Shown piece after piece: positions 3,293 through 64,000 of a stretch of DNA of 64,000 bases. The stretch covers positions 310,001 to 374,000 of the forward strand of contig JAALGZ010000017.1 of NCBI GenBank assembly GCA_015227615.1, given 5' to 3'. The translations under genes and the position numbers were made by a program. Every line of letters begins with the position of its first letter. The stretch's first letter is position 1. This stretch comes from Labyrinthula sp. Ha. Taxonomy: Eukaryota > Sar > Bigyra > Labyrinthulida > Labyrinthulaceae. The notes below the pieces were generated by a model that saw only the letters and a list, made by a program, of their open reading frames with translations, was not told the DNA's origin and did not search any database.

Positions 3293-3329
3293 TCTTTTGT
3301 TGTTTATGATTTGTTCTGTTGTTTATTTT

Positions 3330-44610: not shown

Positions 44611-47600
44611 TTACAATACATATGTTCGCAACAACGTTCCATCACAGTAATTACCAGCATAAGCACAAAATTGCCCTGGACCCTGACTGTTTACAGCACT
44701 CATCCGCACATAATATGCACGACCTGCTGTTAGACTGGTAATTGTGTGAGAATATGAGTCACTATAATCTGCTGAAACATCAAACTGGCCCCTGTGGGGT
44801 AAATTATTATTCGAAAGAAAATCTTGCTGTGTATCCCATTCAACCCGATAAACAGTAACAGGGGTTCCGCCATCCGCTTCGCCGAAATAAAAATGGTTTT
44901 GGCCCATCATGGGCCCACATAGCTCATCTGCGATTGTTGAGTTGGCGCCGCCCCCATAGCAACTTATCCCGTGGTCAGGTATTCGTGGGCCATTCCAATT
45001 TACACTTATTGCACCAGGTTCAGCGGAAATATGGATATTACTTGGCTTGCCAGCTAGCTGATAATGCGGGGCTCGCTTCAATGGGAAACTATTTGCAAAA
45101 GGACCATAACCTACCGAGTTCTTGCAACCCACCCGTGTATAATAATCAACATCCTCCATCAGATTTGTAATAGTGTATGCGAGATCGACAAATACAGACA
45201 ACTCCACATAACCTCGATGTGGTAGATCATACAAGGAGTTAAAAGTTGAAACCCTATCCCATTCTACAGTGCAATACGAGATTTGGTCTCCACCATTAAA
45301 ACTTGGAGGTTTAAAGCTCACAGTAAGCATTGTATCGGAACTCACAACTAGAGAAACTGATACAGGGGCGGATGGTGTTTGCATAGGCTTTTCTCTGGAT
45401 GGGGTAGAAATTTCGGTTGGTCCATAACCTTTTGCATTAAATGCAGAAACCCTTACATAATAGAATTGGCCAGTTACTAAATTCGAAATTGTTACTGTAT
45501 AGGGAGACCCGCCATCAAGATACAGTAAGTCCAAGAAAGAATAGTTTTCCGTGTTAAACAAAGATGAGGTATCATATTCGACACGATACTTTGTAATAAT
45601 TTCACCACCGTCATCTCCATTAGAAAAAAAGACTCTTAGAGTCGTGCCACTCAGAACTTCAAGCTTTACATCGGTTGGTGCATCAGGCGCTTTGGCTGGG
45701 CGAATGGATCCTTGCACATACTGACCAAATGAGTAACCTACACTGTTGTAGGAGAATACACGGAAGAAATAACTTCTACCTTGCTCCAATCCCTCAATTA
45801 GTTGGTTTTCTGTGCATGAGTTGTATTCACTAGCAGCACTAATTTGTTGTATCAATACAAGAGCAAAGTTTTCACCTGATCCGGCGTCTGTCACTAAACT
45901 ATTAGATTCAACTTCAATTTCAAGGTTATGGAGAATATCGTTAAAAGTTATACGCCAAATATGTTCTCCTGGTTCCTGACCGTCTTCACGCGACACCAAT
46001 ACTCCTCCTGATAATCCCAGTTGGGCCAAAAGAAAGTTGACATGACTCTCTATTGACCCTCTCGTATTAGGTTCTGTACACAAGACGTTATTGAAACAGA
46101 AAACATTGTCATAGTTATAGTGTTCTTCCTGAAATAGTGCACTTGCATTGAATGCTATGGAATGTGCAGTCAATGCACTTGAGGCCCCCAACAAGAATTT
46201 TAGTGCAAAAGAGCCCCCAATAATTTTGGTAGCAGGAGTTTGTACTCTAGTCTCAAGAGAAACAGTGTACAACACTGGAAAATTTGGGCATCTTATTTCA
46301 AGTGAACCAGCAAAGCCTGCCGAAGCCACCGATCCAAAACCAGCAGAGGTATCATATTGAATCAAGTATTTAACAACTGGACTTCCGCCGTCACTATCAG
46401 GTGCCTCATAGTAAACGAAGATTGACGTTGCATCATCAGCTTTGTTGAATGCTATCACATTCTTTGGAGGCCCAGGTGCTTGAAGAGCCGGTGCCAGGGA
46501 ATTAGGCATGCTAGACTGAAACGGACCTATTCCCTTGGAACTGATGGCTTCTACTTTAAATAAGTAATCTTCGCCCGTGCTAAGATTAGTAAAAATGTAA
46601 GAGTTGTATTCTGTATCTGCGGATAATACTTGAAATTGGAAGGAATGTGGTGTTTCCCCTGGTTGGCATTGAGGGCATATCAATCTTGAAGAAACAGAAC
46701 TGGGAGGTTGAGCATCTGAATCAGTAAGTTTCATATCTCCATCATAAACAAAACTAGTTGCACCACAGCCCTCATTTTCACCCAAACAATAAAGATCGGT
46801 AGTGTCTACTTCAATAGGTTCCAAGTCAAGATTCGGAAGCAATGGATAGTAGGCGAAGGTTATCAACCAAGAATACTTTCCGTAAATATCGGTCACATTA
46901 GTTTCGATTACCTCAATTGTTCCTGTTGTGGTTAATGATTCAAACGCATCTTTAAGCTCACTGGCAGAAGCGTTATGGGAAATTCGAGGGGACCATTCAG
47001 AAGATTGGAAACGAACTCGGAAAAACCCTTCAATGAACCCTTCTTGGGTGGTAAGAATTTCTAAACGTTGGACCTCAAATGCGCCTCCAGTTCTTACCCC
47101 AGCTTGATGAAGTTGCGTATAAGCTGAGATGTCTCCCGTGCTAACTAAACTGGAGCTGTGTATTTGCAACATGGGCAATCGCCCAGGATTAAGCATTTTG
47201 TCGACAAATGTCACAAGCCACTTGTATCCTCTGTTGGATAAATTATATCTTTCAACAATGCAGTGACCAATGGAGTTCCAACTATTAATTGCCATCAGCG
47301 CAAAACGAAAGTCTGCAGCAGAAACATCAGCGGCCAATTGAATGGAAGAATGGCCATTAAAAAGAAGAAAAAAAGTTCCAGTGATTGGTTCGACCACAGT
47401 TGTTGAGATTGTCACACTCTGAATCTCATAGATTGGGGCCGCTTGATAACTAAAAACTGCATAATATTGTACCTTACTACCACCATCAGAAACAGGTGGT
47501 TCCCATTCTACAGTTATTTCAGTTATGGGTTGAGACTGTTCACTTGGACTGTGCACTTTGACTTTATGGGGAACACCTGGATAGTTTAGCGTAAAGCTAG

Positions 47601-50600
47601 GGTATTTGGTTGCGAGAAAAGGTCCATATCCATCAGTGGACCCATGGGCTATGACACCGTTGTAAGCTGACACCCGAACAAAGTATCGGATACCCGGAAT
47701 CACCGGCTCGCACAATTGCCCGACATATGTATGTATGACAGACCAGGCACCGATGTCATATATATATATCTCAGGAACTGCAGTCAATTTTTTTAGCCGT
47801 GTAGAGTTTATTAGCTCCACCGTGGAACAAAGTGGCCAGCCCCCTGGTCTAGAGTCAAAGTTTTCATTGACGTCCCACTCAATGCGATACTGGAGTAATT
47901 CAGATCCCCCATCACGAGCTGGTGCCTGTATAAGTAGGCGCAGTTTTTTCCCTGAAAGGGGAACAACCTCAACATTAAAGGGTGCTGTTGGTGGTTGTGA
48001 CCTTGTGAGCAGCGATCCAGGAAAAGGAATGCACCATCTAGTATTGTAACCATAATATGGAGCTCTTTGTCTTGGGTTAGTAACTTGTGGGCGAACATCA
48101 TTGAAAGCTGCAATTCGAACAAAATAACGTGTAGAGGTGTTAAGTCCGGTAATAAATGTAAAGAACGGAGGAACTCCAGAAAGTTTCGACTGAACTACTT
48201 CCTGATAACCCAGAGGCTGATTACTACCGGGTCCAGATGAAAACATGTCAGAAAGATCATATTCTAGCTTGTAATGAGAAATTGGGGAACCGCCACTATC
48301 TGATGGTGGCTCAAATTGAATCAGCAAAGAAGAGCTAGAAGAAACAGACATCTCACAATTTTCAGGAGCGCTGGGTATACTCTTGGGGATGCTGGAGAGT
48401 GTCTTTGAAGGCTCTGGCAATGAGAACCCCAAATCGTTTGAAGAGAGCACACGGACGAAATGTCTCAAACCTGCAGATAGATCTGATAGATAGACACACC
48501 CAAAGCATCCTACATAATTATCCATGTCTTTTTCATCAAGGCGAAAAGACTGGCCTCTTAGTATCTCAACTTTTGTGCTATTAGGGTACAACATGCTGGA
48601 CACTACCTCGAGAGATTGAATATTAGATTTAACCCCAAGAAATTTAATTCGCCATTCAAACCCAAAATATCGCAAGAAAACTTGATATTCCCCACTTGCG
48701 CCTTGAAAAGATTTTATTGTTGTAACACTTTCAAGAGAAGCCAAATAAATTTTGTTGTTGGAAACGGTAAAAAGGTGCACAAGATAATTTTCTCGCCCTA
48801 GAATAATTTCCTGACCAGGTGTTAAACTCAAATTATGTTCCCCTGGAAGAGTGATAAAACTCTGCCCTTTAATACAAACTGCAGTTACTCCAGTAGACAA
48901 GACTGTAGGATGTTTCTCCACAGACACAGTTTCTAGAGCAGAAAGAGATTCCAGGCGCGTTTTCATCGAGATGGCAGAAATGTCGGCATCAGCATGGAAG
49001 GATTCCATTGCGAACCCAACTGTGAAGTGCCCAGAATAGAGCATCCCTTGGCTTAAGACCCTTAGAGACACTTGCAGCGCATCTCCAGTGTAATTATGTT
49101 GCAGCAGCCGCAAATCAGGAATATCTCCTCGAACTGAAGCACCTGTGAAGGTGACTAAGAAGCGGAAACCGTGCCCTGAGAGCAAAGAAAACCTTTCTTC
49201 ATGTACTATTATAGCTTGTACTCCGATGTTAGGAAGCAACTCAAGTTGTGTTTTCAATGTTTGCGAGTCAAAGGGCTGGAACATTGGCGTAATCTCTGTT
49301 CTGTTTGCAAACATACAAGAGTCGCAACTATGAGAATCAAACTCCAGTTGAATATAGCCTTGTGCGGTTTGTGGTGATACGGAAACAATGGAGTTCTTGC
49401 AAGTTGATTCGCCACACAAAAATTGTTTTTCACATTGGCTCATAGCAAGCTCGTCTTCCACTTTTAAAGGAAACACTGGTATACCAGGTTTGAATTTCAA
49501 ATTGAAGTTAATTGAGTCACCGCCTTCAATACGACTCACATTATCTATAGAAGAATTTCCTTTCAAGTTAATCATTATCATACTTATGGAGTCCTTAATT
49601 TCCTCGGCAGTTGAGTTAAAATGAAGGCACTTTGAAGCACGATTTCCATATGATAAAATGAACTCCCCTTGAGAAATATTCTCAGTCAAATCCACTGTTA
49701 GGAGTTGGTATGTAGAGAGTGAGCTGATATAAAGCTCTACTATTTCTGGCTCACCATAAGATGAGGTTCTAATCACCTGCTCATTAAGAAAATCTGAAGC
49801 TTGCAGGTCCAAGGCACCATATGAATCGCTTTCAAAGTCCTCGTCTAAGTCATACTCTATGCGGAATGTCTGGAGGTTATAGTTTTCAACACCACTTACA
49901 TCAAACGACAGGACAAGTGATGTTGATGAGCCCATGTGAGCTCTAGCAGAACGAAACACCTTAATCGCTGCACCCTGACCAGATAACAAAGAATTAAAAA
50001 TCTTTATAAGAGGTATTTCTGTATTGGTCGGCATGTACTCAAAGGTGACAGCCCATTGCGAAACTAGACCCATACTGTCAACATATTTTGTGACACTTAC
50101 GCCATGTACAGTAGGCAATTCATTCAGTAAATTCTGAAGTTCTAGAGCTGTTACGTTGTATGCACAACTTTGTGCAACATGACCTTCAAATTCAAGTCTA
50201 AATTTACCAGAAACTTGGTTTCCCTTACTAACTTCTGCCACCTTCATAAGCGCATTTGGTCCCCTGAGCGAGGAGGAGAACGTGATCATAGGGATATCAC
50301 CAGCAGGTGCTAAGAAAGTTAAGAACCAAGTATACTGCCCAGCCCCTTGGGCTGTTCTAGAAACTGTGATGACGTAATCATCGTTCATCCTTGATAGCTC
50401 CTCCTCTAACTCAAGAGCTGAAACATCTGACATTAATGTGTTTGTTGTATGTCCCCCAACTTGGAGCGAGAAATTTCCAGAGACCTCACTCCCATTTATT
50501 ATTGTTTGCGTAGTGCAGGTATCTGTGGCAAATAAAGCTCTACACGTCATAGGAGAAAGGTTACCAACAAAACCTTGCAAAGCTAGTGAAAGAACAATTA

Positions 50601-53600
50601 TTAGTGAAGAATCAATTTCTTGCAGACTTTTCCGAACAAATATATCTTCCATCAATGGCAACCTCTGTATCTTCATCTCCAATTCTTGAACAGTTTCATT
50701 TCCATGTATCAACAAATCTTCTTGTGTTGATGGCCGTAAATCAAAGCAAGGCTCAGAAGATGAGCTCATGTTCCTGCAGAACGGAAGGACAGAATCATTA
50801 TGCATGACCAATGGCAGGGACTGGGGACAAAGGATGATCCTATATCTTTTTATTGCCACATGAGATGCAGTAAAGACTAGTACGTCACAACCTACTTCAA
50901 CAATCGCTAGAATTGCTTTCTTAAGGTCACTATTGGAGTAGTTTTCTATGAATCGGATACATGAAGACTTTCGGTTACCCAGTGATATAACAACACACTT
51001 CGGTGGATACTCATTTCCGTTGTTCCTTATCTCCAAGAAATATTGAGTGGAAGAGAGCCAAACCCAACCATTTCCATCGGAATAATAAAACCCTAAGTCA
51101 AAAGAATGTTCGGACGTATTACGGCCTAAGAAGAGGTTAATCTGCTGCACCTCATGAAAGATTTCCACGGAGGTATATACTACTTGAACCTCTGGTACAT
51201 ACTTACCTCCAACAACAATGGTCTGAATTTCAAAACTGGGTAGTGCGGCACCCAGGTGAACCAATGATGGTTGGCTTGGCACGGTACGTGGTCTGTCCTT
51301 CACAACACCAGCTGAGTACTGACCAATATAAGTATTTGAAGCAAACGCAACTTGAAAAAAATATGTCTTATCTTGGCTTAGTCCATCAACAACGGCAGAG
51401 GTGGGAAGGTAACCATTCACAACGGTGTGAATTCTGAAAGAGGCATTTTCACCTTGAAGAAAAGTTGTTCCTGCAGAAAATCCTTTATTTGGCCCGATAA
51501 AGGACTGGTATTTAGTTTTCCAAGCGTGCCCTGAAACTTTACATATTTTGTTCTTAAGTCTGTCGCCGCCTCTATGTATGAGCCGCTCACTTCCTCCCCC
51601 GGTAACTTCCCCGTCGCTACGTAATACCTTAGCTAGAAGCAGAATGTTCGCATTGCCTTGTTGAATTTCTGTTACTTCGACCGCTGCATCAAGAGATACA
51701 CTTAGAACAACCAGTTCAAGCAAAGGCATATCTCCTTCAACTTGAGTTGCATCGAACGTAATCGTCCAAAATCTTGTTGTAGTGGTCTGCACGTATTGAA
51801 CAGAAACACCATATAGCCCAATATTTGGAAATGACCATAGAGCCTGCTCAAGTGTAACCCTTGGATTGAGATCCTTAGACAAACTTACTTGGCCGGAAGC
51901 AACAGTTTGTGTAACGCAGTGTGAACAACTAGAAGTATCAAATCGGATCTTAAGTTCTCCTTCCATAACCGATAAAAATTTTGAGTCATTACTAAAAGAA
52001 CAACCTCTATCATTACCGTTGCTTGAGAGCTTCATCCAGGCCTTGGAAGGCTGACGCAGCACTATTATCCACTCATATCCTCCGTGCAATGCCTGTGAGT
52101 ATACATTAGAGACGTTTAAGCTGGGGAAGGAGGTGCTGACTTCATCATAAACAGTCTGGTTGCTTGCATTCCATTCAAGGCAGGGAGTCATTGCCCCATT
52201 TAAGAGTAAGGAATATTCGGATGACTGAGCAGCAAAGAAAGCCTGCTTTTTTCCAGTATTCATTATAGTAACTTGCTGTATTTCAGGAAGTACTAGCTGA
52301 GAATCACCAAGGTCTTGATCATCCTCGATGTTTTCGGCAAAAGATGCATTGGATGGTATTAAGTCAGTACATGGTGACCCTATTTTTAACTTTAGACTAG
52401 AATTATTTGTCAATAAAGGCGCCTTATACCTTACAATAAGTGAGATACCTGAATCTGGATAGTCATAATATATTGGGCTCTTTGTCACCACCAGAAAGCT
52501 AAAATTGAATGCTTCTGTTATAGATTGTTTCATGCTTAATTCTGAGGCATTCATTTCAATGCATCTTGTAAGAGCAGAGGCAAACTCAAACTTGAAACCT
52601 ACAGAATCAATTGTTTCACCACGCACGGCAGCAGACAGAACAAATCGTTGACGGCGAAGAGAACTCCCAAAGACTGTAAAGTGCGGTGGTATTATATAGG
52701 CAGCAACAGAATGTTGAGTATCCCCAGTGAAAGGGACTTGAACTCCATCTCGTCGAAGCCCAAATTCCTTGTAACTATTTCCTTCTGAAAGGATTGAAAT
52801 AGTTACCTTAACAGAAGAATCACAACGCTGTTGAAGAGTTGCGTCGCAACCAAGAAACAGGTCGTCTACCTTAAGTGGCGCTATTATGCTCTGATATTCA
52901 TTCCCAATAAAATGAATTGTATAATTCGTTGTCAACCTCTCATTGACTGCATAAATCTGAAAGCTTCCCGGAGTCAAAATATCTTGGAGATAAATTTCCA
53001 ATTGAGATTGGGTCACATTTGTGTATATGCAATCAGTTCTCTTGAGTTGATACAAGAGACGAAAACCACAGTTGATAATCGAGTCATTAGATCTGAACAC
53101 CGTTATAGTGTGGACAGCTACCCCTGTATCTACTTCATATACTTGTCCCTGGATACGCACAAGATCACCTGTTTTAATGTATGGGCGCAAATTATATCTC
53201 GAAAGAACTATTGAACTCCCACTAGTTACAATAAGATCACTTGATGGAATTAACTCATCTCCAGTCGCTTCAAGTTGGGAGTTAATGCATTCAGTGTTAC
53301 TACATGCAAGCCGAAACACATCGCCAGGAGCTAGCAACTTGCGAATGGAAACGCTAGAAACCAAATATGAATTTCCATGCCTTAAGTCAACGGTTCCCGG
53401 AAGGCAATGCTGAAGGGACAAGAAGCGTGAAACTCGAACATTCCCTGCCTCTTTCATTTCATTTACTTGATGTTCAAGTGCAGTAGACGTAACATCATAA
53501 CTTAAGAAGTCTGTTTTTGTTTGTGCGAACTCCAATGCAAAAGAACCTCCGAGAGGTTCTGTACCGTCCTTGAACGTGGATACTGATACTTTGACCTCAT

Positions 53601-56600
53601 TTCCCTGTAAGAATGAATTCTGAACAAACAGCGGTGAGAGGTTACCTGACCCAGGAGGCCACGTTGATCCCGCAAACATACCTGGACTTCTCAGAAATGT
53701 AATGGCCCATAAGAAGCCACCTCGTTGTATTCCGCTAGTGACATTTTCATTTCCCCAACCAGCCAATTTTGGGCTAGGATAATGTGTGCGAGAAACTACC
53801 ACGTACAAATTTCTACGTAGAGAAGAAAGTTTAGATTGGAAACTCCAAGCACTTTCATTGAACCAAAGTCGTTTATGCTCTACTTCTTGCTCAGAAAGCG
53901 CTAGGTCAAAATATCCAGAAAGACCCGCTGTTCCTTTTGAGGCCTCAAACACAACAAGACTTTTAGTTTCATTCTGCCCAGTTTCCGTTAGCAAGGAATC
54001 ATTTCCCAATAATAAGGCCATGTCCCCACTTCCTGATGGATATTGGTTGGGATTATCTGAGAAAGTAATGTGCCACGTCCTGGCTCCATAAACTCCAATA
54101 TTATTAGACACAACTTTTACATGTCTTATATCAGATAATTTTTCCAGAGCATCTCTCATATTTGCTGATGACGAGTTCCAACTAAGTAGATCAGTCGATT
54201 CGCTTTCAAATAGTAGTGTAAAATGACCTCTGAGGATATTCCCCTTTGATACTTCCTCGACCACCACTGAAGTGTTCTCACCAGTTAATCGGTTGTACTC
54301 TGATGAAAACAACGGAACATCACCTGGACTCAAACATTGACCATTATCAGAGCAGACGTCAGCAAGAAATGTAATGAACCACCGATAACTTCCACTGCTA
54401 CCTGATACTGTAGAAAACTCATCAACATCGCTTCTTGAAACCCTGATATCTCCAATGTTTGGCATTGATTCAAGAACTTCCTCCACCGATTCCCCTTTTC
54501 TGTTTGTACTTGCAGCAAAGGCAGCAGAATGGGGAGCGTTGTGCTTTAAAAACAGACTGGTCGACAGTAATTTTTCCTTCATGAAGTCTGACATGGTTGA
54601 ATCTAATTTTAACCTAAAACTTCCTGAGAGCGGGATAGTGCCTTTTCTTCTCTCTTGCACGTCGCAAGCGGCTAAACCAATTTCTGTATTCGTTGTAAAA
54701 AGAGTTTCGCTAGTTCTACAACTAAATAATGAAACATCTCCAACGTTTATTCCCCAACTCTTGGAGAAACCAGATGGCCAACATTCGTTTCCATGATCAA
54801 TTCCGTCATGGGTTTCAGCGTTGATGAACTTAATTTCCCAGCAGAAACTGTTCACCTGAGCCGATTTCGTTGCATTTTGATATCTTTGCACAACTACATT
54901 ACCTATGTGCGGATGAGCTTCTAACATAGATTCAACTTCCTCAACACTTGACTGAAATGACAATGGAGCTGTGTGTATTCCTTCTAGATCAAGTGTAAAG
55001 CTTCCATATAGCTCGTTACCTTCAGTTATTGTTAGAAAACTGACATATGAGCCTGTTCCAGTCAAGTAGTTGCATTCGCCAAATTCATTCGTAGAAAAGT
55101 GTACGTGGCATATGGTGTCACCAGAGCAAACTATAGGTGTACAAATTTCGGCTTCGAGAGCCATTTCTACCTGTCTTGGTTGCCCTTTGTCATCAAGGAA
55201 CCTAATATTGAAACTGTACCCAAATCCAGAAGATAAGTCTCCAAGGCCTTCCCTTTCTATGAAGACATTAGCCAGCTCAAGTTCATCCATTAGTAAAGAC
55301 TCGAGAAAACTAGCTGAAGAATGCCAGGGAATGCATGTGCTAGTAGCTGAACCATTCCAAGACAACCTGTAGGAACCAGATATCACTTCATTATCAGCTT
55401 CTAATATAAGAAGTTGTTGATGAGCACAGGTGAAAGGGGTATAGAGTTGTTGAACATTTCCTCCAACCATTTGTCCAGTAAATGTAATATAAAAAGTTAC
55501 CCCAAGGCTCTGGTCTTTTTCAGAAATTGTCACCGAGACATTGTCAATATCTGGAATGGTCTCAAGTTCATTTTTCAGCTCGGTAGCGGAGATGTTATGG
55601 AGTAAGAACTTGGTTTCATTTTGTATGACTGATGACTTTGCCCTAAACCCCAACTTGAATACTCCACCTACTTCATTGCCTTTGACTACTTCGGAAACAT
55701 TTACAAAGGTGCTCCCTTGAGAAACTAAACGTTGTGAATTAATTGGTCGGGAATTAGGTACATCGCCCCCAAGGGTAAGAAATTGAATAGTCCATTGGTA
55801 CCCACCACTCCAGCTCTGAAAATCTCCATCTGGTAAGAAACGGTCCCTAGTAACATGAAGATCTCCAATTCCGGGAAGCAGTTCAAACCTATCTTTGACC
55901 TCAATGGCGGAGCTGTTATGAGCCAAGGAAACATTTGTTTCGTTCCACGAAACAACAAAACTTCCTGATATAAAACTTCCTTCTTGCAGTGTAGAGACAG
56001 TACACCTCTGTCCGTTCCCACTAGACACCCCATATATCTCATTGTTAAGAGACAAATTTTGCTGAATATTGCACTTTAGTTCCGGCACATTACCATCATT
56101 TCCCCTAAATGTAATGTCCCAACTAGAACCTCCTACTCCATCGTCTAAACTTGACTTTACAATTTCTACCGGTGCAAATATTGAGGACAGGAACTCGAGC
56201 TTCTCTTTCACAGAGGTGCCACTAATGCCGCTCCCAGGTGCCTGCACTTCAAGTGAACCAGTAACTTCAACACTTCCCAAAGTTGGAACGGAAGAAAGTG
56301 AATCGTCAATAGAAAGCTCAAATGTCCCAATTGGATCGAGCTCATTACCATCGACACAGTGTTTTTTTTCCATTTGAGTTGAACACGGATAGGTTGAAAC
56401 GCTTGGGTTGTCACCTTCAAGCCCAGCGTAGCTAACATGTAGAGCTTTTTTTGCTATGTTTCCTGCAACATCAAGACTCGTAAAGTTCAATACCCATAGC
56501 ACACCCTCGCCTTCTGCACCTTGATGAAAATACTCCGAGACTGCAACACCATTGTTAACATTGCTAAGTAAGTTAATTTCACTGGAAAGTGTATTGGGTA

Positions 56601-59600
56601 CAAATGGATTGAAGAGTGGTGTGCTTAAGTTGGCTTTAATCGCGCAAAGGTTACATAGAGTTGTATCGAAGGAAAGGGCAATTAACCCTTGTCGGTTTTC
56701 ACTCTCGATTACACGGTTGGGTGATCCACAGTCACCATTTTCAAGACAAGTAAATAATCCACAACTCTGAACGTCAACACCAAAGGTTAATGTTTCAGGT
56801 GATAAAGTCCCGGCAAAGTATATTCGATATTTGGTTGTCGAGAGGGTTGCTGAGACCTGTTGAACCTCCACATCTGCTCCTGATAAAGATTCCAACATCT
56901 CTTCTAATGAAGCCCCAGTCGGATTATCTAAATCTCGAACGGGTAACTCATCCCACGAAAAACAACGGGTCGGTCCATAGCTTCCATACATTAAGCTAGC
57001 ACCCGGTCTAACGCCATCCTGCTTCTTTGAAAGAGAAAATACAGCAGCATCACCTCGTGTGCTACTAGATATCAAGCCAAAAAAGCTAGCGTTATCTAAG
57101 GATATTTCCAAAGAAGGAATGCTCCCTCGAACTGAAGGTCCTGCGAAAGTAATAAGCCAAGAACCACCCTCAACGGTGTTTCCAGGAAAAAAGGATACAG
57201 TAATATCACCTGATAGCACATTTGGTAATTCATTTAGAGCATTCTGTAAATTAAGGCGGGTTAACTCACCAGATATATGAGTGTAACCAACTTCTTTATA
57301 GTAACACAGTATACAGTTACTGGAATTAAACCTCAGGTATAGTGGACTAGAAACAAGATTTGCAGCATCTATTGCAGCTTCTTGGGAATAGCATTGCAAG
57401 TTCTCTGAACCACACCTAAACTCATTACACCCAGTTATTGTGTGGTCTAGAGTGATTTGCAACATTGGTCTCTCCAGCATACCAACCTGAAAGAACAATT
57501 GGTACAGAATTTCGCGATTGACATCAATCATGCTTTTGGTGACAAGGACTGGGTCAGTCGATAACCTGTTAATTTCATTCGAGAGTTCAACTGCGGTTGC
57601 ATTCCACCCAACACAACCAGAGGTAGTACCATTATACGTTAGTCTATATCCACCGTAATTACCTTCTGTAACTGCAACGACTGCTGTTCCTGTACTGTTA
57701 ACCAGGCTATCCTCTATCTGAAGTAGAGGTACGTTGCCATAGTATGGACTAAATGTTATACGCCAGGATATACTATCACTAGATAGCACATAACTGTCAT
57801 CAACTTCAACCCCATAAGCTGAGAACTGGCTAAAGGAAGAGAGGTTAGAGTTCTTTACACCATTTGACGTTATATCAATATGGCCTGTTGACTGTACCCC
57901 AAAATAACTGAGGAAAGAAGTTGAGGAATCCAGCGAAGATGAGTTGAAAAAAAGCCTGAAAGTTCCACCTATATCAAGCGGAAAAACTCCGTATAAGTAA
58001 ATAACTTGTACTTCCGATTGCATTTTGAGCTCAGAAGCCGTCCTCAGAGTTAAGTTTTGAGTCGCCATAGGATCCTCAATCTTGAGCTCTTGAACCTCAT
58101 CCTCTACATCTATAGATGAATTACCAATAAAAGTTAGATATTGAGTTTTTCTGGGTTCAGTAATTTCAAGTGCCTGAATCTCAGTTTCTCTAGTAGCTGT
58201 CAGGGTGACTCTTTGGACTTCATCTATGTGCTCAGTAGAAGTAGTAATGGTCTGAACCTCATCAATGTCCAAGGCAGATACAACTACTTGCTGAACTTCA
58301 TCAATGTCTTGCGTGTCAGTACAAACCTCTTGAATTTCACCCAAGACGGTGTTCCCTTGTGTGGTTATGCTTTGAACTTCATCGCGACCTACAACAGAAG
58401 TAGCAACGGTTTGTTCTTCGTTCTTTACAGCAACAGTCACCAAAATCTGTTGAACTTCGGGTGAAGCTGTAGAAAAACTGCTTATGAAATCGACACCTTT
58501 TACGATATTGAGGACTGAAGTTCCGAGAGCTATTGGCTCTAGATGACAGCTGAATATATTCGTAACGTAACACACACTATCGTCTGCAAGAGAAACGTGA
58601 AGATCACTACCAGTTGTTCGAACAACTCGAAAGAAAAGTAATAAATGATTCTCCATTTGCTCTATTCTTTCCAACTCGACAGAGGCCGTAAGAGATTGAA
58701 GTGTTGAAGAAAAAACGTTGTTTGTTTGCTCCGGTGATGCACTGCAGTTCACGTCTGGAGTCTCATATCTACCTAGGAATAGACGATAAGAGCAATTTGA
58801 GCTCACTGTTGTACTATTATGTTGCACAATTGAAAGTTTGTACACTGAGTCAAAGATATTAGTTAGGTCCCAGGCAATATAAACACTAGAAAATGTTTCT
58901 CCACCATCATACACAGGTAAGTTCCAGGATAACCGAATGGATTTTTTCGATAAAGGGAAAGAAGACAGATTCCTAGGCATCGACGGGGGTACAACCTGTG
59001 GGATGACAAAAGAAGGATCCGCATAAGCAGCAGCACCCCATCCTAGCTCATTGAAAGCAGATACTCGAAAGTAGAATTCACGTTGAGAAAAGTAGTCATC
59101 TTCTTTGCCTGAGAATACATCCCTACTTCCAATGACATAATTTCTTGTTTTCGCGCTAACAAACACACCCTTAGGTGGAGGGGGTAAGTCAAAGTCATCA
59201 TCCCACTCTACCAGATACTGTAGTATATCTCTTCCGCCATCACCCCCAAACTCTAATCCTTCCACTGTTGGGGGTTGCCATGATATCTCAACCTGTGCGT
59301 TCGATCTTACAAGCAGGGCCACATTCTCAACAGGACCAGGAGGGCTAGGCCGAGGCTGCACTGGTGAAGGGAACACCATAAGAAACGGACTGAAACCGAA
59401 GGAATTATGTGCACGTATTCTAAAGTAGTAAGGTTCCTCTGTTCTAACTACAAGATTATAATAAAAAGGTCCCAACTCGGAATCGGGATAAAAGCTATGT
59501 TGATAACCTGAAAAAAGGATATTTGCAAAAGATTCTTCAGTATCCCATTCAATGATGTACATATCTATGGGAGCACCAAAAACATTTTGCGGTTCGGCCC

Positions 59601-62600
59601 ATACAATTTTAATCAAGTTAGGTGCAAGTATAACCAGGTAACCGTCAGCAGGAGCTTCAGGGATGGATCCCACTAAGACTGGCCCATTTCCGTAAGTCGC
59701 TTTGCTCATTCCTAGAGGACCAAGTAAACATGACTCAATGAAGTATTTCTGACCTGTTACTAGACCCGAGATATCTACAATTTTAGCTGATTCCAACTCT
59801 CCAACAACGATACTAGCATGCCTCGAAGGTTCCGTTGGTGATTGAAGAAGAATCACACTTAACTTAGGTTTATTACCAGTTAGGAATGTCGAATGCGGAT
59901 ACAATAACGGAAACTCATCAACACATCCCATAAATGTAATATACCAATTATATCCATTAGCGTTGCTGGTGCGTGTTACAGAAACTTCGGAGATTGATGG
60001 CAGTACCTCTAATGTCATCCTCAAAGTATCTGCAGTTGAATTATGCGGTATTGGGGCACTTTTCAAGTACTCGTCTAGGCTATAATCAAAATATCCCAAC
60101 ATAAAAAATCCATTGATAGGAGTTTCTCCCTCAACTAGAGTTATAACAGAGATAGCTGCATTCAAACCAATCCATATAGGACCTTTCTTAGGAACTAGTT
60201 GCTCCACGTTTCCTAGATAGCCGTTGGCAAAAGTAATATCCCAAGAGAAGCCTGAAGTAAACTTAAAAACAGGGGCAGAATCTCCCAACGGCATAACTTC
60301 ACATGTTGTTGCGATGCTGCTATCATTAAAGAGGGCTAACGGAAGGTATGAAGCATTCAGTCTGTTGCTTTCATCTCCATAAACAAAAATTGCGAATGCC
60401 TGACCTAAAAAACTGATGCGATCTCCTTCGCCTAGTTGAGCAAAACAATTATTGGAACAAATTAATGCCTCTAAACTATGTGCGATAGTAGCAAAGCCTA
60501 GTATAGGTGTAGTTGATGCATGTCTGGTCACCTCTACACGACCGAGACTTGATAATAGTTGCAGCTCGGTTGCCATTTCCTCAGGTCCAACATTTGTGGG
60601 CATAAGTGAAGTTTCTTCACCCTTAAACGAGAGAGAGAAAAACCCTTGAATTGGACTATCGCAAATTGTACTAACCCTTTGCACTTCCAACCTACCTCTA
60701 CCAGAAACAGAGGTTGTAACTACCTGTATCAAGGGTTGGACTGCCTTAGGGTACACCTTTACAATAGCTTTTCCAGAAAATGCAGGTGGTGTGTGAATAG
60801 TCGCCTCTATTGAAGTAGAATTCTTTGCACTTCCATGAATCACTAGTGGTGCCGGCGTGACAGATGTCGCACTAAAATAAAAAAACGCTGTAGGCGGGGT
60901 CAGACCATATTTGGAAATGGAATGAACCCTTACTTTGTAGGCAGTGTCGGCATCAAGGTTCTCTATCCATACTATTTCCTTGTTTGTTCCACGAACGATT
61001 TCGGATACATCATACTTCAGATTAACTCCGCTCAGAGAAATGTTAACTACCCTCAAGGTTGCTATGTTCCCAGCTCCTAAAATACTGTCTCCGTAACCCA
61101 GGTGGGAAAACTCAATATGGAAGCAGATTGTAGACAATAGTTCAGTCCTCCGTTCTATCTTTGTAAGGTGCAGGGTTGATATGGTAGACAGTAGTTGCAG
61201 AGCGGCCTTAACAGCTTCGGAGGAAGAGTTTACATTAATTGGTTCGGTTGTTTCTCCTTCAAACTCTATTGAAAAGTAACCAGTAATATTTGAAATGGAA
61301 TGAAAGCTTAGCGCTTGCTTCTCATACGTGATTTCGCCTGGCCATATATCTGTCACACCTTTCTGAACTTCCTCAACAACTATTTCAGCATCACTCCCCA
61401 CCAGAAGCACAGTCTTGGCTCGAAGCGAACCCACATCCCCTCTGGCTCTCTTAAATGTTACGGTCCAGCTATATCCATTTCCAGCTCTTTCGCGATCAAC
61501 TTCTAAATAATCTAGAAAAAACCTTGAATCCGGGAAAAGGGTTTCGAGTTCACTTCTCATACCAAGTGAGGTCACATTATAAGGCATAAGGTTTGTCTCT
61601 AACCCCCCAAAACCTATACTAAATACTCCTCGCACAGCATCATCGGAAGTTTGTAAGGAAATTTTCTGTACTTCCTCTATCTCAATTTTTCTTGTAAATG
61701 AGTGTTCTACTCCAGTCACAGTTAGGCACTCTATTAAATATCCAATGACGGTGCCCAAGAGCGAACTAGGTTTTTCAAACTCAATCGAAACTTTATTAGC
61801 CATAGAGTATCTACCGATAAGCAGTCTTTGCGGAGCTAAAGCCGTTACATTTCTTTCAGGGAATATGAACTTTTGTTGCGAAAGTAACAAACTACCAAAG
61901 AGCATGGAACTCGTAAGAAGCCTCACTGTATATTCTTTCTTAGGCAAGAAAGCATAGCTCAAATCTTTGTAATCTAATGAAGCACCTTCCTCATGAATTA
62001 TCTTTGAAAAAGTTTTAAAGCTTCCTTCTTTAACAGTTGTCGTGGAACAGTTTACCGCAGAACCCTGACCAACCAAGAAAACTCCATCTCCGTAAGATTG
62101 TACGTATTTTTCAAAGAAGGTGAAGTCAAAGATATTTCTAAGAAAGTCTGTATACTGCTTTGAATGATATTCTACCTGGACTTCCTTATTGGGAACGACC
62201 TCTGCTAACCATATTCTCAGCTTGGATAAATCGTTCAAAGCAAGACAACTCGAACTGGTATTTAAAAACCCTAGTTTGAATCGAACAATTCCGCTTACCC
62301 CATGAGCTGTTTCCATAACTAACCTTTGAGTAATAGGGCTGGTTCCAACAGTGAAAACACTCTTCTTATTTGGGTATCGCCTTAGAGAAACTACAGCGCC
62401 TAAACCAGAAAAAGAAGTTAATGGGTAAATGAAGGGCTCTGGTTTTATTTGGCTTAACCTCCACCTCGACAGAACAAAATATATTTCATGTCCATTTGCC
62501 TTGTACTCGAAGATATTGCCACTGAAATACTCTTCCATAGGTTCAGTCAATGTAATCGTTTTCTTTGTGCAACCCTCTGAAGCAACAGTAAAACTTCTAC

Positions 62601-64000
62601 CGTTTAGGAAAAACTCATTGCTGAAATAAAAAAAATTGCACATGTAGCTGTCGCAAAGCATCTCCAAATTACCGGGGTAAATTTCACAACGTATGTTCTC
62701 CACAATACGTGCACTCCTCTTCCAACTAATGGCATTCGCAACAGTTACGAATGATTCTAGTCTCTGTTCCAACTCTTCAGTCGTTATGTTATGGTTAAAG
62801 GTCAACACCTCATCCGTTTTCAAATCTCTCAGAGACAAACTACCAGTTACAGGTCCGTATTTTGCATATGTGCGAAGTACAAAGAAATTTACATCTGTCT
62901 CAAAACTCTCCAGGTATTGACTGTTTTTATCAATAACATGAAAGTCACCCTCAATGTTATTAAAGGAACTAAGAAGTAATGCCTGTACACAGTAACCTGA
63001 AGTGTAGTTACGATTAATGCGTTCAACACCAAACTCTTCGGCAGTCAGGTCCAGCAATTCCGTAAATTTAAGCTTCAAGTAATGTAACTGCTCCAATAAG
63101 CGCACTGATATTTTCCTATCTTTATACCGTATGAGAAATTTATCCTTAAGATTCAAACAATCAACTTTGGATTGAAAAAGCAACAACTTCTTGTTCAGTT
63201 GGTATTTTGTACATACCCCAGAGAACTTACTATCAACAAACGAAGAGCAAGTTTGGAATGAAGAATATGGAACAATAAACCTTGAATCTAATGAGGAACT
63301 CCAGCCACTGGAACTTACCAGCGATATTGCCGTGTAATTCTTGTTTGAGCATGTCAAATCAGCCTTTTCTATTGCAACAAATGTTTCGTTCTTGTCATAG
63401 GTGTTGAATGATAAATTTAACTGATAAAAAGAAGCATTAGGGTGGAAGGCAGTTATACTAACCACTGAATGATGTATTGAATCAAATAAATCCTGAGCCT
63501 CTAGAGTAGTCGCTCCAATGCTAAGTGACGGTAGCTTCTGCAGCGCAAGAGAAAACTTGACTTTGCCTTGAATGCTATTTTCTGCAGGACAGAAAAAAGT
63601 AAATACCTTATAAGGGAAAGGTGTATGCCTTGGGAGCACCTCTAGCACTCCTTTCTCCAACAGTTGCGATATTTTAGATGAAATAATAATTTTCTTAGTA
63701 TCCGCGTCATTCCGCTCAACTTCAAACTTAATATCTTCTCCTAACGACATCTTCATACAAGAGGGGTTGCGCCCGTTTGGCCACAACACTGAAAGAGAGT
63801 CACTTGAATTCTGGGCAATAATCTTGCTAAGACCTAGGTCAGTTCGTGAGCGTGTTCGAAGACACAGAAAATTCTTGAAGGATTCAACAGGGGGTTTATT
63901 AATGTCTATTTGGTAGACATCGGTAAACGATTCATAAGATATTAACTTGGATGAATTTCCAGGATAAACATGAAATAAAGGAAATTGAATGCCTGCAGCC
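44611..64000 (-). CDS. giant FN3/beta-module adhesion-like protein, N-terminus beyond window
   Basis: The frame is open without interruption from 44611 to the right edge: 19.39 kb, at least 6,460 residues, no intron. The start is not in the window. Two module kinds alternate. (1) Fibronectin type III domains, mainly at 44.64-48.5 kb and 58.85-59.68 kb, with the typical GGxxIxxYxVEWD and YYVRVSAxNxxGxGP blocks. (2) More than 30 beta-rich modules of about 90-110 residues: G-x-F-x-L-x-F-x-G, then ALExLPxIGxVxVxR, then W-x-I-T-F, then G-D-x-P-x-L and an EV-x-x-G end. Many start after an 'EVQ' motif. Several FN3 domains are split by inserted modules. Numerous N-x-S/T sites and paired cysteines indicate an extracellular protein. 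No membrane segment is visible. Such proteins are known to me from stramenopile genomes as uncharacterised; adhesion, prey contact or matrix function is inference. Confidence 0.9.
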   Translation of the reverse strand, partial: AAGIQFPLFHVYPGNSSKLISYESFTDVYQIDINKPPVESFKNFLCLRTRSRTDLGLSKIIAQNSSDSLSVLWPNGRNPSCMKMSLGEDIKFEVERNDADTKKIIISSKISQLLEKGVLEVLPRHTPFPYKVFTFFCPAENSIQGKVKFSLALQKLPSLSIGATTLEAQDLFDSIHHSVVSITAFHPNASFYQLNLSFNTYDKNETFVAIEKADLTCSNKNYTAISLVSSSGWSSSLDSRFIVPYSSFQTCSSFVDSKFSGVCTKYQLNKKLLLFQSKVDCLNLKDKFLIRYKDRKISVRLLEQLHYLKLKFTELLDLTAEEFGVERINRNYTSGYCVQALLLSSFNNIEGDFHVIDKNSQYLESFETDVNFFVLRTYAKYGPVTGSLSLRDLKTDEVLTFNHNITTEELEQRLESFVTVANAISWKRSARIVENIRCEIYPGNLEMLCDSYMCNFFYFSNEFFLNGRSFTVASEGCTKKTITLTEPMEEYFSGNIFEYKANGHEIYFVLSRWRLSQIKPEPFIYPLTSFSGLGAVVSLRRYPNKKSVFTVGTSPITQRLVMETAHGVSGIVRFKLGFLNTSSSCLALNDLSKLRIWLAEVVPNKEVQVEYHSKQYTDFLRNIFDFTFFEKYVQSYGDGVFLVGQGSAVNCSTTTVKEGSFKTFSKIIHEEGASLDYKDLSYAFLPKKEYTVRLLTSSMLFGSLLLSQQKFIFPERNVTALAPQRLLIGRYSMANKVSIEFEKPSSLLGTVIGYLIECLTVTGVEHSFTRKIEIEEVQKISLQTSDDAVRGVFSIGFGGLETNLMPYNVTSLGMRSELETLFPDSRFFLDYLEVDRERAGNGYSWTVTFKRARGDVGSLRAKTVLLVGSDAEIVVEEVQKGVTDIWPGEITYEKQALSFHSISNITGYFSIEFEGETTEPINVNSSSEAVKAALQLLSTISTLHLTKIERRTELLSTICFHIEFSHLGYGDSILGAGNIATLRVVNISLSGVNLKYDVSEIVRGTNKEIVWIENLDADTAYKVRVHSISKYGLTPPTAFFYFSATSVTPAPLVIHGSAKNSTSIEATIHTPPAFSGKAIVKVYPKAVQPLIQVVTTSVSGRGRLEVQRVSTICDSPIQGFFSLSFKGEETSLMPTNVGPEEMATELQLLSSLGRVEVTRHASTTPILGFATIAHSLEALICSNNCFAQLGEGDRISFLGQAFAIFVYGDESNRLNASYLPLALFNDSSIATTCEVMPLGDSAPVFKFTSGFSWDITFANGYLGNVEQLVPKKGPIWIGLNAAISVITLVEGETPINGFFMLGYFDYSLDEYLKSAPIPHNSTADTLRMTLEVLPSISEVSVTRTSNANGYNWYITFMGCVDEFPLLYPHSTFLTGNKPKLSVILLQSPTEPSRHASIVVGELESAKIVDISGLVTGQKYFIESCLLGPLGMSKATYGNGPVLVGSIPEAPADGYLVILAPNLIKIVWAEPQNVFGAPIDMYIIEWDTEESFANILFSGYQHSFYPDSELGPFYYNLVVRTEEPYYFRIRAHNSFGFSPFLMVFPSPVQPRPSPPGPVENVALLVRSNAQVEISWQPPTVEGLEFGGDGGRDILQYLVEWDDDFDLPPPPKGVFVSAKTRNYVIGSRDVFSGKEDDYFSQREFYFRVSAFNELGWGAAAYADPSFVIPQVVPPSMPRNLSSFPLSKKSIRLSWNLPVYDGGETFSSVYIAWDLTNIFDSVYKLSIVQHNSTTVSSNCSYRLFLGRYETPDVNCSASPEQTNNVFSSTLQSLTASVELERIEQMENHLLLFFRVVRTTGSDLHVSLADDSVCYVTNIFSCHLEPIALGTSVLNIVKGVDFISSFSTASPEVQQILVTVAVKNEEQTVATSVVGRDEVQSITTQGNTVLGEIQEVCTDTQDIDEVQQVVVSALDIDEVQTITTSTEHIDEVQRVTLTATRETEIQALEITEPRKTQYLTFIGNSSIDVEDEVQELKIEDPMATQNLTLRTASELKMQSEVQVIYLYGVFPLDIGGTFRLFFNSSSLDSSTSFLSYFGVQSTGHIDITSNGVKNSNLSSFSQFSAYGVEVDDSYVLSSDSISWRITFSPYYGNVPLLQIEDSLVNSTGTAVVAVTEGNYGGYRLTYNGTTSGCVGWNATAVELSNEINRLSTDPVLVTKSMIDVNREILYQLFFQVGMLERPMLQITLDHTITGCNEFRCGSENLQCYSQEAAIDAANLVSSPLYLRFNSSNCILCYYKEVGYTHISGELTRLNLQNALNELPNVLSGDITVSFFPGNTVEGGSWLITFAGPSVRGSIPSLEISLDNASFFGLISSSTRGDAAVFSLSKKQDGVRPGASLMYGSYGPTRCFSWDELPVRDLDNPTGASLEEMLESLSGADVEVQQVSATLSTTKYRIYFAGTLSPETLTFGVDVQSCGLFTCLENGDCGSPNRVIESENRQGLIALSFDTTLCNLCAIKANLSTPLFNPFVPNTLSSEINLLSNVNNGVAVSEYFHQGAEGEGVLWVLNFTSLDVAGNIAKKALHVSYAGLEGDNPSVSTYPCSTQMEKKHCVDGNELDPIGTFELSIDDSLSSVPTLGSVEVTGSLEVQAPGSGISGTSVKEKLEFLSSIFAPVEIVKSSLDDGVGGSSWDITFRGNDGNVPELKCNIQQNLSLNNEIYGVSSGNGQRCTVSTLQEGSFISGSFVVSWNETNVSLAHNSSAIEVKDRFELLPGIGDLHVTRDRFLPDGDFQSWSGGYQWTIQFLTLGGDVPNSRPINSQRLVSQGSTFVNVSEVVKGNEVGGVFKLGFRAKSSVIQNETKFLLHNISATELKNELETIPDIDNVSVTISEKDQSLGVTFYITFTGQMVGGNVQQLYTPFTCAHQQLLILEADNEVISGSYRLSWNGSATSTCIPWHSSASFLESLLMDELELANVFIEREGLGDLSSGFGYSFNIRFLDDKGQPRQVEMALEAEICTPIVCSGDTICHVHFSTNEFGECNYLTGTGSYVSFLTITEGNELYGSFTLDLEGIHTAPLSFQSSVEEVESMLEAHPHIGNVVVQRYQNATKSAQVNSFCWEIKFINAETHDGIDHGNECWPSGFSKSWGINVGDVSLFSCRTSETLFTTNTEIGLAACDVQERRKGTIPLSGSFRLKLDSTMSDFMKEKLLSTSLFLKHNAPHSAAFAASTNRKGESVEEVLESMPNIGDIRVSRSDVDEFSTVSGSSGSYRWFITFLADVCSDNGQCLSPGDVPLFSSEYNRLTGENTSVVVEEVSKGNILRGHFTLLFESESTDLLSWNSSSANMRDALEKLSDIRHVKVVSNNIGVYGARTWHITFSDNPNQYPSGSGDMALLLGNDSLLTETGQNETKSLVVFEASKGTAGLSGYFDLALSEQEVEHKRLWFNESAWSFQSKLSSLRRNLYVVVSRTHYPSPKLAGWGNENVTSGIQRGGFLWAITFLRSPGMFAGSTWPPGSGNLSPLFVQNSFLQGNEVKVSVSTFKDGTEPLGGSFALEFAQTKTDFLSYDVTSTALEHQVNEMKEAGNVRVSRFLSLQHCLPGTVDLRHGNSYLVSSVSIRKLLAPGDVFRLACSNTECINSQLEATGDELIPSSDLIVTSGSSIVLSRYNLRPYIKTGDLVRIQGQVYEVDTGVAVHTITVFRSNDSIINCGFRLLYQLKRTDCIYTNVTQSQLEIYLQDILTPGSFQIYAVNERLTTNYTIHFIGNEYQSIIAPLKVDDLFLGCDATLQQRCDSSVKVTISILSEGNSYKEFGLRRDGVQVPFTGDTQHSVAAYIIPPHFTVFGSSLRRQRFVLSAAVRGETIDSVGFKFEFASALTRCIEMNASELSMKQSITEAFNFSFLVVTKSPIYYDYPDSGISLIVRYKAPLLTNNSSLKLKIGSPCTDLIPSNASFAENIEDDQDLGDSQLVLPEIQQVTIMNTGKKQAFFAAQSSEYSLLLNGAMTPCLEWNASNQTVYDEVSTSFPSLNVSNVYSQALHGGYEWIIVLRQPSKAWMKLSSNGNDRGCSFSNDSKFLSVMEGELKIRFDTSSCSHCVTQTVASGQVSLSKDLNPRVTLEQALWSFPNIGLYGVSVQYVQTTTTRFWTITFDATQVEGDMPLLELVVLSVSLDAAVEVTEIQQGNANILLLAKVLRSDGEVTGGGSERLIHRGGDRLKNKICKVSGHAWKTKYQSFIGPNKGFSAGTTFLQGENASFRIHTVVNGYLPTSAVVDGLSQDKTYFFQVAFASNTYIGQYSAGVVKDRPRTVPSQPSLVHLGAALPSFEIQTIVVGGKYVPEVQVVYTSVEIFHEVQQINLFLGRNTSEHSFDLGFYYSDGNGWVWLSSTQYFLEIRNNGNEYPPKCVVISLGNRKSSCIRFIENYSNSDLKKAILAIVEVGCDVLVFTASHVAIKRYRIILCPQSLPLVMHNDSVLPFCRNMSSSSEPCFDLRPSTQEDLLIHGNETVQELEMKIQRLPLMEDIFVRKSLQEIDSSLIIVLSLALQGFVGNLSPMTCRALFATDTCTTQTIINGSEVSGNFSLQVGGHTTNTLMSDVSALELEEELSRMNDDYVITVSRTAQGAGQYTWFLTFLAPAGDIPMITFSSSLRGPNALMKVAEVSKGNQVSGKFRLEFEGHVAQSCAYNVTALELQNLLNELPTVHGVSVTKYVDSMGLVSQWAVTFEYMPTNTEIPLIKIFNSLLSGQGAAIKVFRSARAHMGSSTSLVLSFDVSGVENYNLQTFRIEYDLDEDFESDSYGALDLQASDFLNEQVIRTSSYGEPEIVELYISSLSTYQLLTVDLTENISQGEFILSYGNRASKCLHFNSTAEEIKDSISMIMINLKGNSSIDNVSRIEGGDSINFNLKFKPGIPVFPLKVEDELAMSQCEKQFLCGESTCKNSIVSVSPQTAQGYIQLEFDSHSCDSCMFANRTEITPMFQPFDSQTLKTQLELLPNIGVQAIIVHEERFSLLSGHGFRFLVTFTGASVRGDIPDLRLLQHNYTGDALQVSLRVLSQGMLYSGHFTVGFAMESFHADADISAISMKTRLESLSALETVSVEKHPTVLSTGVTAVCIKGQSFITLPGEHNLSLTPGQEIILGRENYLVHLFTVSNNKIYLASLESVTTIKSFQGASGEYQVFLRYFGFEWRIKFLGVKSNIQSLEVVSSMLYPNSTKVEILRGQSFRLDEKDMDNYVGCFGCVYLSDLSAGLRHFVRVLSSNDLGFSLPEPSKTLSSIPKSIPSAPENCEMSVSSSSSLLIQFEPPSDSGGSPISHYKLEYDLSDMFSSGPGSNQPLGYQEVVQSKLSGVPPFFTFITGLNTSTRYFVRIAAFNDVRPQVTNPRQRAPYYGYNTRWCIPFPGSLLTRSQPPTAPFNVEVVPLSGKKLRLLIQAPARDGGSELLQYRIEWDVNENFDSRPGGWPLCSTVELINSTRLKKLTAVPEIYIYDIGAWSVIHTYVGQLCEPVIPGIRYFVRVSAYNGVIAHGSTDGYGPFLATKYPSFTLNYPGVPHKVKVHSPSEQSQPITEITVEWEPPVSDGGSKVQYYAVFSYQAAPIYEIQSVTISTTVVEPITGTFFLLFNGHSSIQLAADVSAADFRFALMAINSWNSIGHCIVERYNLSNRGYKWLVTFVDKMLNPGRLPMLQIHSSSLVSTGDISAYTQLHQAGVRTGGAFEVQRLEILTTQEGFIEGFFRVRFQSSEWSPRISHNASASELKDAFESLTTTGTIEVIETNVTDIYGKYSWLITFAYYPLLPNLDLEPIEVDTTDLYCLGENEGCGATSFVYDGDMKLTDSDAQPPSSVSSRLICPQCQPGETPHSFQFQVLSADTEYNSYIFTNLSTGEDYLFKVEAISSKGIGPFQSSMPNSLAPALQAPGPPKNVIAFNKADDATSIFVYYEAPDSDGGSPVVKYLIQYDTSAGFGSVASAGFAGSLEIRCPNFPVLYTVSLETRVQTPATKIIGGSFALKFLLGASSALTAHSIAFNASALFQEEHYNYDNVFCFNNVLCTEPNTRGSIESHVNFLLAQLGLSGGVLVSREDGQEPGEHIWRITFNDILHNLEIEVESNSLVTDAGSGENFALVLIQQISAASEYNSCTENQLIEGLEQGRSYFFRVFSYNSVGYSFGQYVQGSIRPAKAPDAPTDVKLEVLSGTTLRVFFSNGDDGGEIITKYRVEYDTSSLFNTENYSFLDLLYLDGGSPYTVTISNLVTGQFYYVRVSAFNAKGYGPTEISTPSREKPMQTPSAPVSVSLVVSSDTMLTVSFKPPSFNGGDQISYCTVEWDRVSTFNSLYDLPHRGYVELSVFVDLAYTITNLMEDVDYYTRVGCKNSVGYGPFANSFPLKRAPHYQLAGKPSNIHISAEPGAISVNWNGPRIPDHGISCYGGGANSTIADELCGPMMGQNHFYFGEADGGTPVTVYRVEWDTQQDFLSNNNLPHRGQFDVSADYSDSYSHTITSLTAGRAYYVRMSAVNSQGPGQFCAYAGNYCDGTLLRTYVL
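44640..48510 (-). repeat. C-terminal fibronectin type III cluster
   Basis: At least seven FN3 units precede the stop, recognisable by proline-rich starts (PSAPVSVSL, APDAPTDVK, PPTAPFNVEV), the Y/W-x-V/I-E-Y/W-D strand and the RVSAxN strand. Two are interrupted by beta-module insertions (about 45.81-46.31 kb and 46.61-47.43 kb). Confidence 0.85.
57995..58470 (-). repeat. EVQ tandem motif array
   Basis: Nine short units with E-V/I-Q at their centre follow each other (SPEVQQI, RDEVQSI, GEIQEV, DEVQQV, DEVQTI, DEVQRV, TEIQAL, DEVQEL, SEVQVI) without a complete beta-module between them. Elsewhere in the protein a single EVQ strand normally leads one module. Confidence 0.8.
58850..59680 (-). repeat. 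internal fibronectin type III cluster
   Basis: Two complete FN3 domains (IEWDTEESF and VEWDDDFDL units) are followed by the first half of a third (MPRNLSSFPL to AWDLTNIF). The second half of the third domain (YFFQVAFASNTYIGQ) appears only near 51.3-51.4 kb. Confidence 0.75.

Follow-up and report, generated by a model that had tools for sequence, protein, structure and literature searches.

Split and nested FN3 domains along a giant modular protein of Labyrinthula sp. Ha

We investigated a window of 64,000 nucleotides from the 50.8 Mb genome of Labyrinthula sp. Ha (assembly GCA_015227615.1, contig JAALGZ010000017.1, positions 310,001 to 374,000; features are given in window coordinates), which holds the 3' part of a minus-strand open reading frame of 15,871 codons without a stop (44611..63999; the frame extends beyond the window as far as coordinate 92226). 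This part corresponds to about 6,460 residues at the C-terminal end of a giant modular protein, many of whose FN3 domains are split into an opening and a closing half by inserted modules of about 100 residues, referred to as EVQ modules. We place the probability that this split, nested architecture is real at about 0.85. The halves, their order, complementarity and conservation, and the FN3s aligning across an insert in a predicted model, were all computed directly. The ten FN3 halves listed in an initial annotation of the window all sit on this single frame.

Complementary FN3 halves around EVQ inserts

Pfam fn3 (84 positions) was run on half pieces cut out singly (hand-chosen, without control pieces) and matched in 7 of the 12 pieces scanned; these matches were weak (E 0.00005 to 0.024), all below Pfam's cut-off. 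In three of five listed pairs both halves were recognised, at complementary profile positions. The split FN3 nearest the C-terminal end opens with strands A-C at 46351..46482 (minus strand, as all features below; Pfam fn3 2-39 in the piece 46.48-46.32 kb, columns 1-53 of our own 96-column FN3 model), continues with an EVQ module at 45916..46269 (31.6 bits), and closes at 45730..45810 (Pfam fn3 49-75 in the piece 45.84-45.69 kb, own columns 67-93); FN3 chains align across this insert in predicted model m19a5186f5ded. Another opening half at 47443..47583 (Pfam fn3 14-34 in 47.59-47.44 kb, own columns 2-43 of 96) is followed by two EVQ modules at 46756..47427 (64.4 and 57.0 bits) and by its closing partner at 46516..46617 (Pfam fn3 48-77, E 4.8e-5, in 46.64-46.52 kb; own columns 63-95 of 96). 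The third such pair is the longest split, described below. The separation of opening and closing halves, as the initial annotation had put it, is real; alignment to an FN3 hidden Markov model, which it had recommended, was complementary in these three pairs, reached the closing half only in a fourth and neither half in a fifth.

The fourth pair (61.84/60.87 kb) comprises a divergent opening half at 61681..61839, without a Pfam or own-profile match in this sequence, two EVQ modules at 61003..61674 (59.1 and 57.9 bits), and a closing half at 60895..60996 (Pfam fn3 45-79; 14.3 bits to our own profile). The fifth (60.85/59.69 kb) comprises a similarly divergent and unmatched opening half at 60721..60879, two EVQ modules recognised by the EVQ profile at 59851..60696, the first of them interrupted, and a divergent closing half at 59737..59772 (1.7 bits, no Pfam match). 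For these two pairs we rely on homologues. Clear halves of both pairs are present in P0070, and P0014 has clear halves for the fifth pair and the closing half of the fourth; the window's opening at 60721..60879 aligned to the clear openings of both homologues.

We also built opening-half and closing-half profiles from intact domains and compared their matches in the frame with those in local shuffles; the iterated profiles were applied to the frame and 20 homologues. The first form of the profiles gave 22 opening and 20 closing matches of at least 3 bits in the frame, with none of at least 0 bits in ten local shuffles; after iteration there were 22 opening and 23 closing matches of at least 1 bit, the best of 20 shuffles reaching 1.6 bits for opening and -1.0 for closing halves. 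Training of our FN3 models used 42 full-length rows, drawn from the frame and from 17 homologues, with the misaligned rows P0028_888 and P0014_870 removed. Partial matches to the full-length model were also complementary between halves. The Pfam evidence is independent of the half-profiles.

For homologues, we examined 11 of 41, 8 of 28 and 3 of 3 listed sequences (22 in total; titin-like matches were not used), and the half-profile counts cover 20 of these, omitting P0032, which is nearly identical to P0030, and P0058, in which no EVQ was seen. Because the homologues are partly orthologous to each other and were used in profile training, their totals are counts of sequences and not of independent events. 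The gap between halves was bimodal across 21 proteins: 21-58 residues in 49 intact domains versus 143-2,493 residues in 38 split ones, with none between (one row with a 911-residue gap probably joins halves of different FN3s, the intermediate halves having been missed). Opening and closing halves alternate along the sequences with few exceptions. Among EVQ runs flanked on both sides in the 20 homologues, 32 of 35 stood between an opening and a closing half in that order, two between a closing and an opening half, and one between two openings (17 further runs touch a protein end); shuffling the half labels gave 9.9 opening-closing runs on average, and 22 at most in 10,000 trials. The frame itself has 14 EVQ runs, 6 of them opening-closing, 5 closing-closing and 3 opening-opening, the latter two kinds presumably having one undetected half. 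Complete FN3s on both sides of an EVQ run, one of two outcomes that the initial annotation had named as contradicting it, would appear as a closing half before and an opening half after, and this order was found in none of the 14.

Relatives at 29-44% identity share the architecture. P0042 (44% identity), P0001, P0005 and P0043 have both C-terminal splits, while P0044 terminates inside the second of them and P0004 before it; the insert at the first site measures 275-297 residues in the window's protein and in six others. Inserts between FN3 halves are also present in P0069, whose source tag is MMETSP, a transcript collection, and so are not introns there.

Structure prediction of a split FN3, another check proposed in the initial annotation, bore out the pairing. 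The model of 47.58-45.68 kb (mean predicted local distance difference test score, pLDDT, 75.8; predicted template modelling score, pTM, 0.56) aligned with five solved single FN3s over about residues 365..633 (97-103 residues, 1.5-2.3 Å), and with tandem FN3s over residues 1..632 (4bqb_D: 193 residues, 6.7 Å). In this predicted model the two halves form one FN3 fold.

A likely longest split and deeper nesting

The initial annotation had paired an opening half near 58.9 kb with a closing half about 2,480 residues away, at 51.3 kb, and our own profiles place the two 2,493 residues apart. The opening half lies at 58783..58992 (own columns 2-70 of 96, 28.7 bits; Pfam fn3 2-46, weak, in the piece 59.01-58.74 kb), a similar opening followed by EVQ-type strands being present in P0014 and P0070. 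The closing half lies at 51334..51465 (Pfam fn3 42-81, 16.8 bits, in the piece 51.48-51.28 kb; own columns 46-89 of 96, 4.8 bits), so the Pfam positions of the halves overlap by 5. Between them, an array of short EVQ strand repeats is followed by 17 EVQ modules of at least 5 bits (51667..58380); two weaker EVQ modules (19 in total) and a likely guest insert also lie in this stretch, within which our own profiles found no further FN3 half of at least 1 bit. The 58.9/51.3 kb pair is likely, but not proven, to be one split FN3.

Arrays of short EVQxI strand repeats, mostly at 13-residue spacing and continuing as the first strand of an EVQ module, were observed at 58.38-57.98 kb and, in frame numbering, at residues 78-118 and 13666-13692 (the latter at about 51.2 kb); similar arrays are visible by eye in P0015 and P0022.

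Nesting of domains in domains, which the initial annotation had preferred to a string of beads, is supported, and extends to a level that it had missed. In two window EVQ modules the match to the profile breaks off at columns 59-62 and picks up again at columns 60-64, with 73-87 other residues in between. In the first EVQ module of 59851..60696, an 87-residue guest occupies 60259..60519 (EVQ matches stop at column 59 and resume, at 2.4 bits, at column 64), with counterparts at the same place in P0014 and P0070 of 73 and 79 residues; in another module, a 73-residue guest occupies 48682..48900 (matches stop at column 62 and resume at 60), and the stretch containing it had no PDB sequence match. 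Judged by these profile matches, nesting reaches three levels: FN3, EVQ module, and a small guest near EVQ profile column 60. A GDxIxLxG-like pattern inside EVQ modules is carried by the guests at 53.42-53.11 kb (seen by eye only), 48.90-48.68 kb and 60.52-60.26 kb.

One window FN3 is likely, though not certain, to be cut twice, including an entry at the A-B loop. Its candidate strand A lies at 51250..51282 (2.2 bits to model columns 1-11, weak), with EVQ strand repeats directly after it; strands B-C follow at 49849..49950 (6.6 bits to columns 9-41) with EVQ modules on both sides, and the closing half at 48421..48492 (15.2 bits). The assignment is not certain because strand A is only a 2-bit match and Pfam misses both B-C and the closing half. 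In P0044, which aligned to the window over 915 residues (E 4e-78), strands B-C stand directly after an EVQ module (27.2 bits from column 13).

These entry points qualify a further claim of the initial annotation, that EVQ modules always enter at the same loop, after the VEWD strand. "Always" was too strong: EVQ runs lie between complete FN3s in P0051 and P0054 and between two openings in P0069, a run in P0044 stands between the protein end and an opening without strand A, and the window has the likely A-B loop case.

The EVQ module and the giant frame

Searches of Pfam and NCBIfam gave nothing convincing for the EVQ module, the only matches being to single modules at E 0.016 or worse. The EVQ profile matched the mycobacteriophage Bxb1 tail-tip cage protein gp23 (9d93) in three stretches (E 3.6e-24), hhalign of the two gave 94.6% (E 6.8e-8), and the fold was the same. 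A tblastn search of two EVQ modules against the phage collection gave no match at E 0.01, and the evidence for the phage relation is therefore at the level of profiles and fold, not of single sequences. In PHROGs, phrog_2839 (tail sheath) matched 3 of 14 modules (best 2.3e-5) and phrog_10909 (major tail protein) 2 of 14 (best 0.023). Our own profile matched gp23 at residues 278-324, 331-391, 395-471, 515-559 and 562-595, corresponding to first, first, longer, last and last parts of the EVQ module, respectively; the last two partial matches scored 6.0 and -0.7 bits, against a best of 5.1 in 200 shuffled gp23 sequences. This order suggests that the EVQ-like modules of gp23 may be nested in each other. 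According to its record, gp23 resembles D29 gp27 at residues 9-265 and 614-685, which flank the EVQ-like block (residues 266-613), and the block may thus itself be an insert. Bxb1 gp19, the putative major tail subunit, gave an 11.4-bit partial EVQ match. A link to mastigonemes was rejected, the EVQ profile giving E 0.059 and 0.59 with chains of 9ufe. A second open frame (L022:3851-9103, contig C121; 1,750 codons) has an EVQ match, with two modules and no FN3 by eye.

The giant frame starts with a hydrophobic, signal-peptide-like N-terminus; of its eight most hydrophobic 19-residue windows, seven lie at this N-terminus and the eighth inside the chain, at residue 13772. It contains 237 N-glycosylation sequons versus a mean of 136 and a maximum of 157 in 50 shuffles. 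The signal-peptide-like start and the sequons suggest that the giant protein is probably secreted. At the other end, the frame terminates in FN3 domains with its stop end at 44611, the position of the C-terminal end is about common to the frame, P0042, P0001, P0005 and P0043, and the DNA 3' of the stop looks AT-rich, with no continuation visible by eye. Pfam found FN3 in all five scanned pieces of the frame, and PA14 together with GEX2-type Ig outside the window (a section at frame residues about 2190-5240). By eye, some Ig domains of this section look cut by EVQ modules, and filamin-type Ig domains were considered as additional hosts at about frame residues 2190-2720 and 3085-3300; neither segment matched filamin in Pfam, and we do not claim them. 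Short DNA repeats form 16 families of 24-48 bases, and recent duplication was rejected as an explanation, these repeats being short and their copies only 60-79% alike.

Competing explanations and proposed function

Several observations weigh against the split, nested architecture. The two opening halves of the 61.84 and 60.85 kb pairs are missed by every profile in this sequence. Two consecutive openings occur in P0005, P0042, P0043, P0051, P0069 and the frame, and EVQ runs stand between complete FN3s in P0051 and P0054. The predicted models cover short-insert splits, none spanning a long insert, and the model of 60.88-59.65 kb had a mean pLDDT of 56.5 (below 50 in the innermost guest), with solved FN3s aligning more weakly. 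For the longest split, the closing half is weak (3.4-4.8 bits with our own profiles, besides its modest Pfam score), a homologue search gave no relative of it, and three stretches towards the end of the insert (63, 68 and 80 residues), as well as part of its first 270, have no assignment; further FN3 halves may therefore be hidden inside.

The great divergence of some halves and the two homologue runs between complete FN3s are what one would expect if the halves were degenerate or truncated FN3s and the EVQ modules ordinary linear neighbours, like beads on a string. That explanation is nevertheless very improbable: it does not account for 32 opening-EVQ-closing runs against 2 in the reverse order, for halves at complementary model positions, for solved FN3s aligning across the insert, or for the narrow length range of the insert at one site in seven proteins. 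We give even less credence to the inserts being retained introns or assembly errors in a gene read unspliced. The frame is indeed known from genomic DNA only, but it runs through 15,871 codons without a stop, its inserts are conserved protein modules found at the same sites in other sequences, and the transcript-derived P0069 holds such inserts as well.

In the best-supported reading, the FN3s form the through-chain of the giant protein. In many of them strands A-C come first, 1 to 17 EVQ modules (19 with the two weak ones) leave the chain after strand C, some holding a further guest near profile column 60, and the remaining strands of that FN3 then follow. The EVQ arrays may stand sideways as branches and, by analogy with the phage tail domain, present a binding surface; they would be shielded from pulling force while the host FN3 is folded, the FN3 acting as a clasp over hidden length. 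We offer this branch-and-clasp function tentatively, at somewhat less than even odds. On that view the giant protein would serve outside the cell as a branched scaffold or adhesin that contains hidden length. Baseplate accessory proteins of Bxb1 and Douge contact cell-surface glycans (PMC13252515), and by analogy only the EVQ arrays might do so too. It is also possible, if short of probable, that the FN3s are split as above, their EVQ arrays doubling back alongside the FN3 chain to make a compact rod or wall, with neither branches nor hidden length: the orientation of the arrays is not fixed by the present data, the Bxb1 relative is named a tail tip cage, and PMC13252515 describes the Bxb1 baseplate as barrel-shaped. 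Nothing decisive speaks against such folding back, the model pTM being only 0.56. More doubtful is a broader proposal, in which the EVQ/Bxb1-tail domain would be a guest cassette of tailed phages and eukaryotes entering loops of other domains and of itself; in a giant secreted protein with numerous diverged relatives it would have opened up one FN3 after another, with FN3s as force-bearing clasps and EVQ arrays of up to 17-19 modules as side branches or hidden length.

We then compared the giant protein with known systems. It shares a very long FN3-rich chain with titin and other FN3/Ig giants. The FN3s of titin are continuous beads and the protein is cytosolic, whereas here the FN3s are discontinuous, the start is signal-peptide-like and glycosylation sites are many. 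As in the insulin receptor and IGF1R, an FN3 is interrupted by an insert, which in the FnIII-2 domain of those receptors enters at the C-C' loop and is about 120 residues long. The IGF1R leg (6vwh_A) aligns to the 47.58-45.68 kb model over 97 residues with a root-mean-square deviation of 1.5 Å. The insert domain in insulin receptor FnIII-2 is thought to be disordered (PMC2577065). Unlike the insulin receptor, a receptor kinase with one insert, the giant protein has many cut FN3s and inserted arrays of folded modules that reach 2,493 residues, and Pfam, run on the frame as five pieces, gave no tyrosine kinase or L domains at E 1; it resembles this family in one respect and is not a member. With Bxb1 gp23 it shares an EVQ-type domain, possibly nested, but gp23 is a phage structural protein whose EVQ-like modules were not seen inside FN3.

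Domain insertion is common, and cyanobacterial RNA polymerase SI3 nests to six levels (PMC13114784); the giant protein follows the same recursive A1-B-A2 pattern. In the events described there, the inserted domain is smaller than its host in 77.0% (median 115 versus 199 residues), whereas here the whole insert exceeds the host FN3 (96 columns) in length by a factor of about 1.5 to 26, single EVQ modules being about host size. The word "fibronectin" is absent from the main text of that paper, and PMC12221091 makes no mention of fibronectin, PA14, filamin or giant. In the openly licensed literature we found no description of this family, or of serial FN3 splitting by folded arrays longer than the host.

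Domain annotation regards FN3 proteins as beads on a string, which in this case misses the split FN3s and hides an architecture that relatives have kept despite their sequence divergence. Inserts far exceeding the length of their host domain oppose the usual size relation of domain insertion (PMC13114784). The shared EVQ module, perhaps self-nesting, connects the giant protein with phage tail tips and offers a concrete system in which to test how discontinuous domains fold and bear force.

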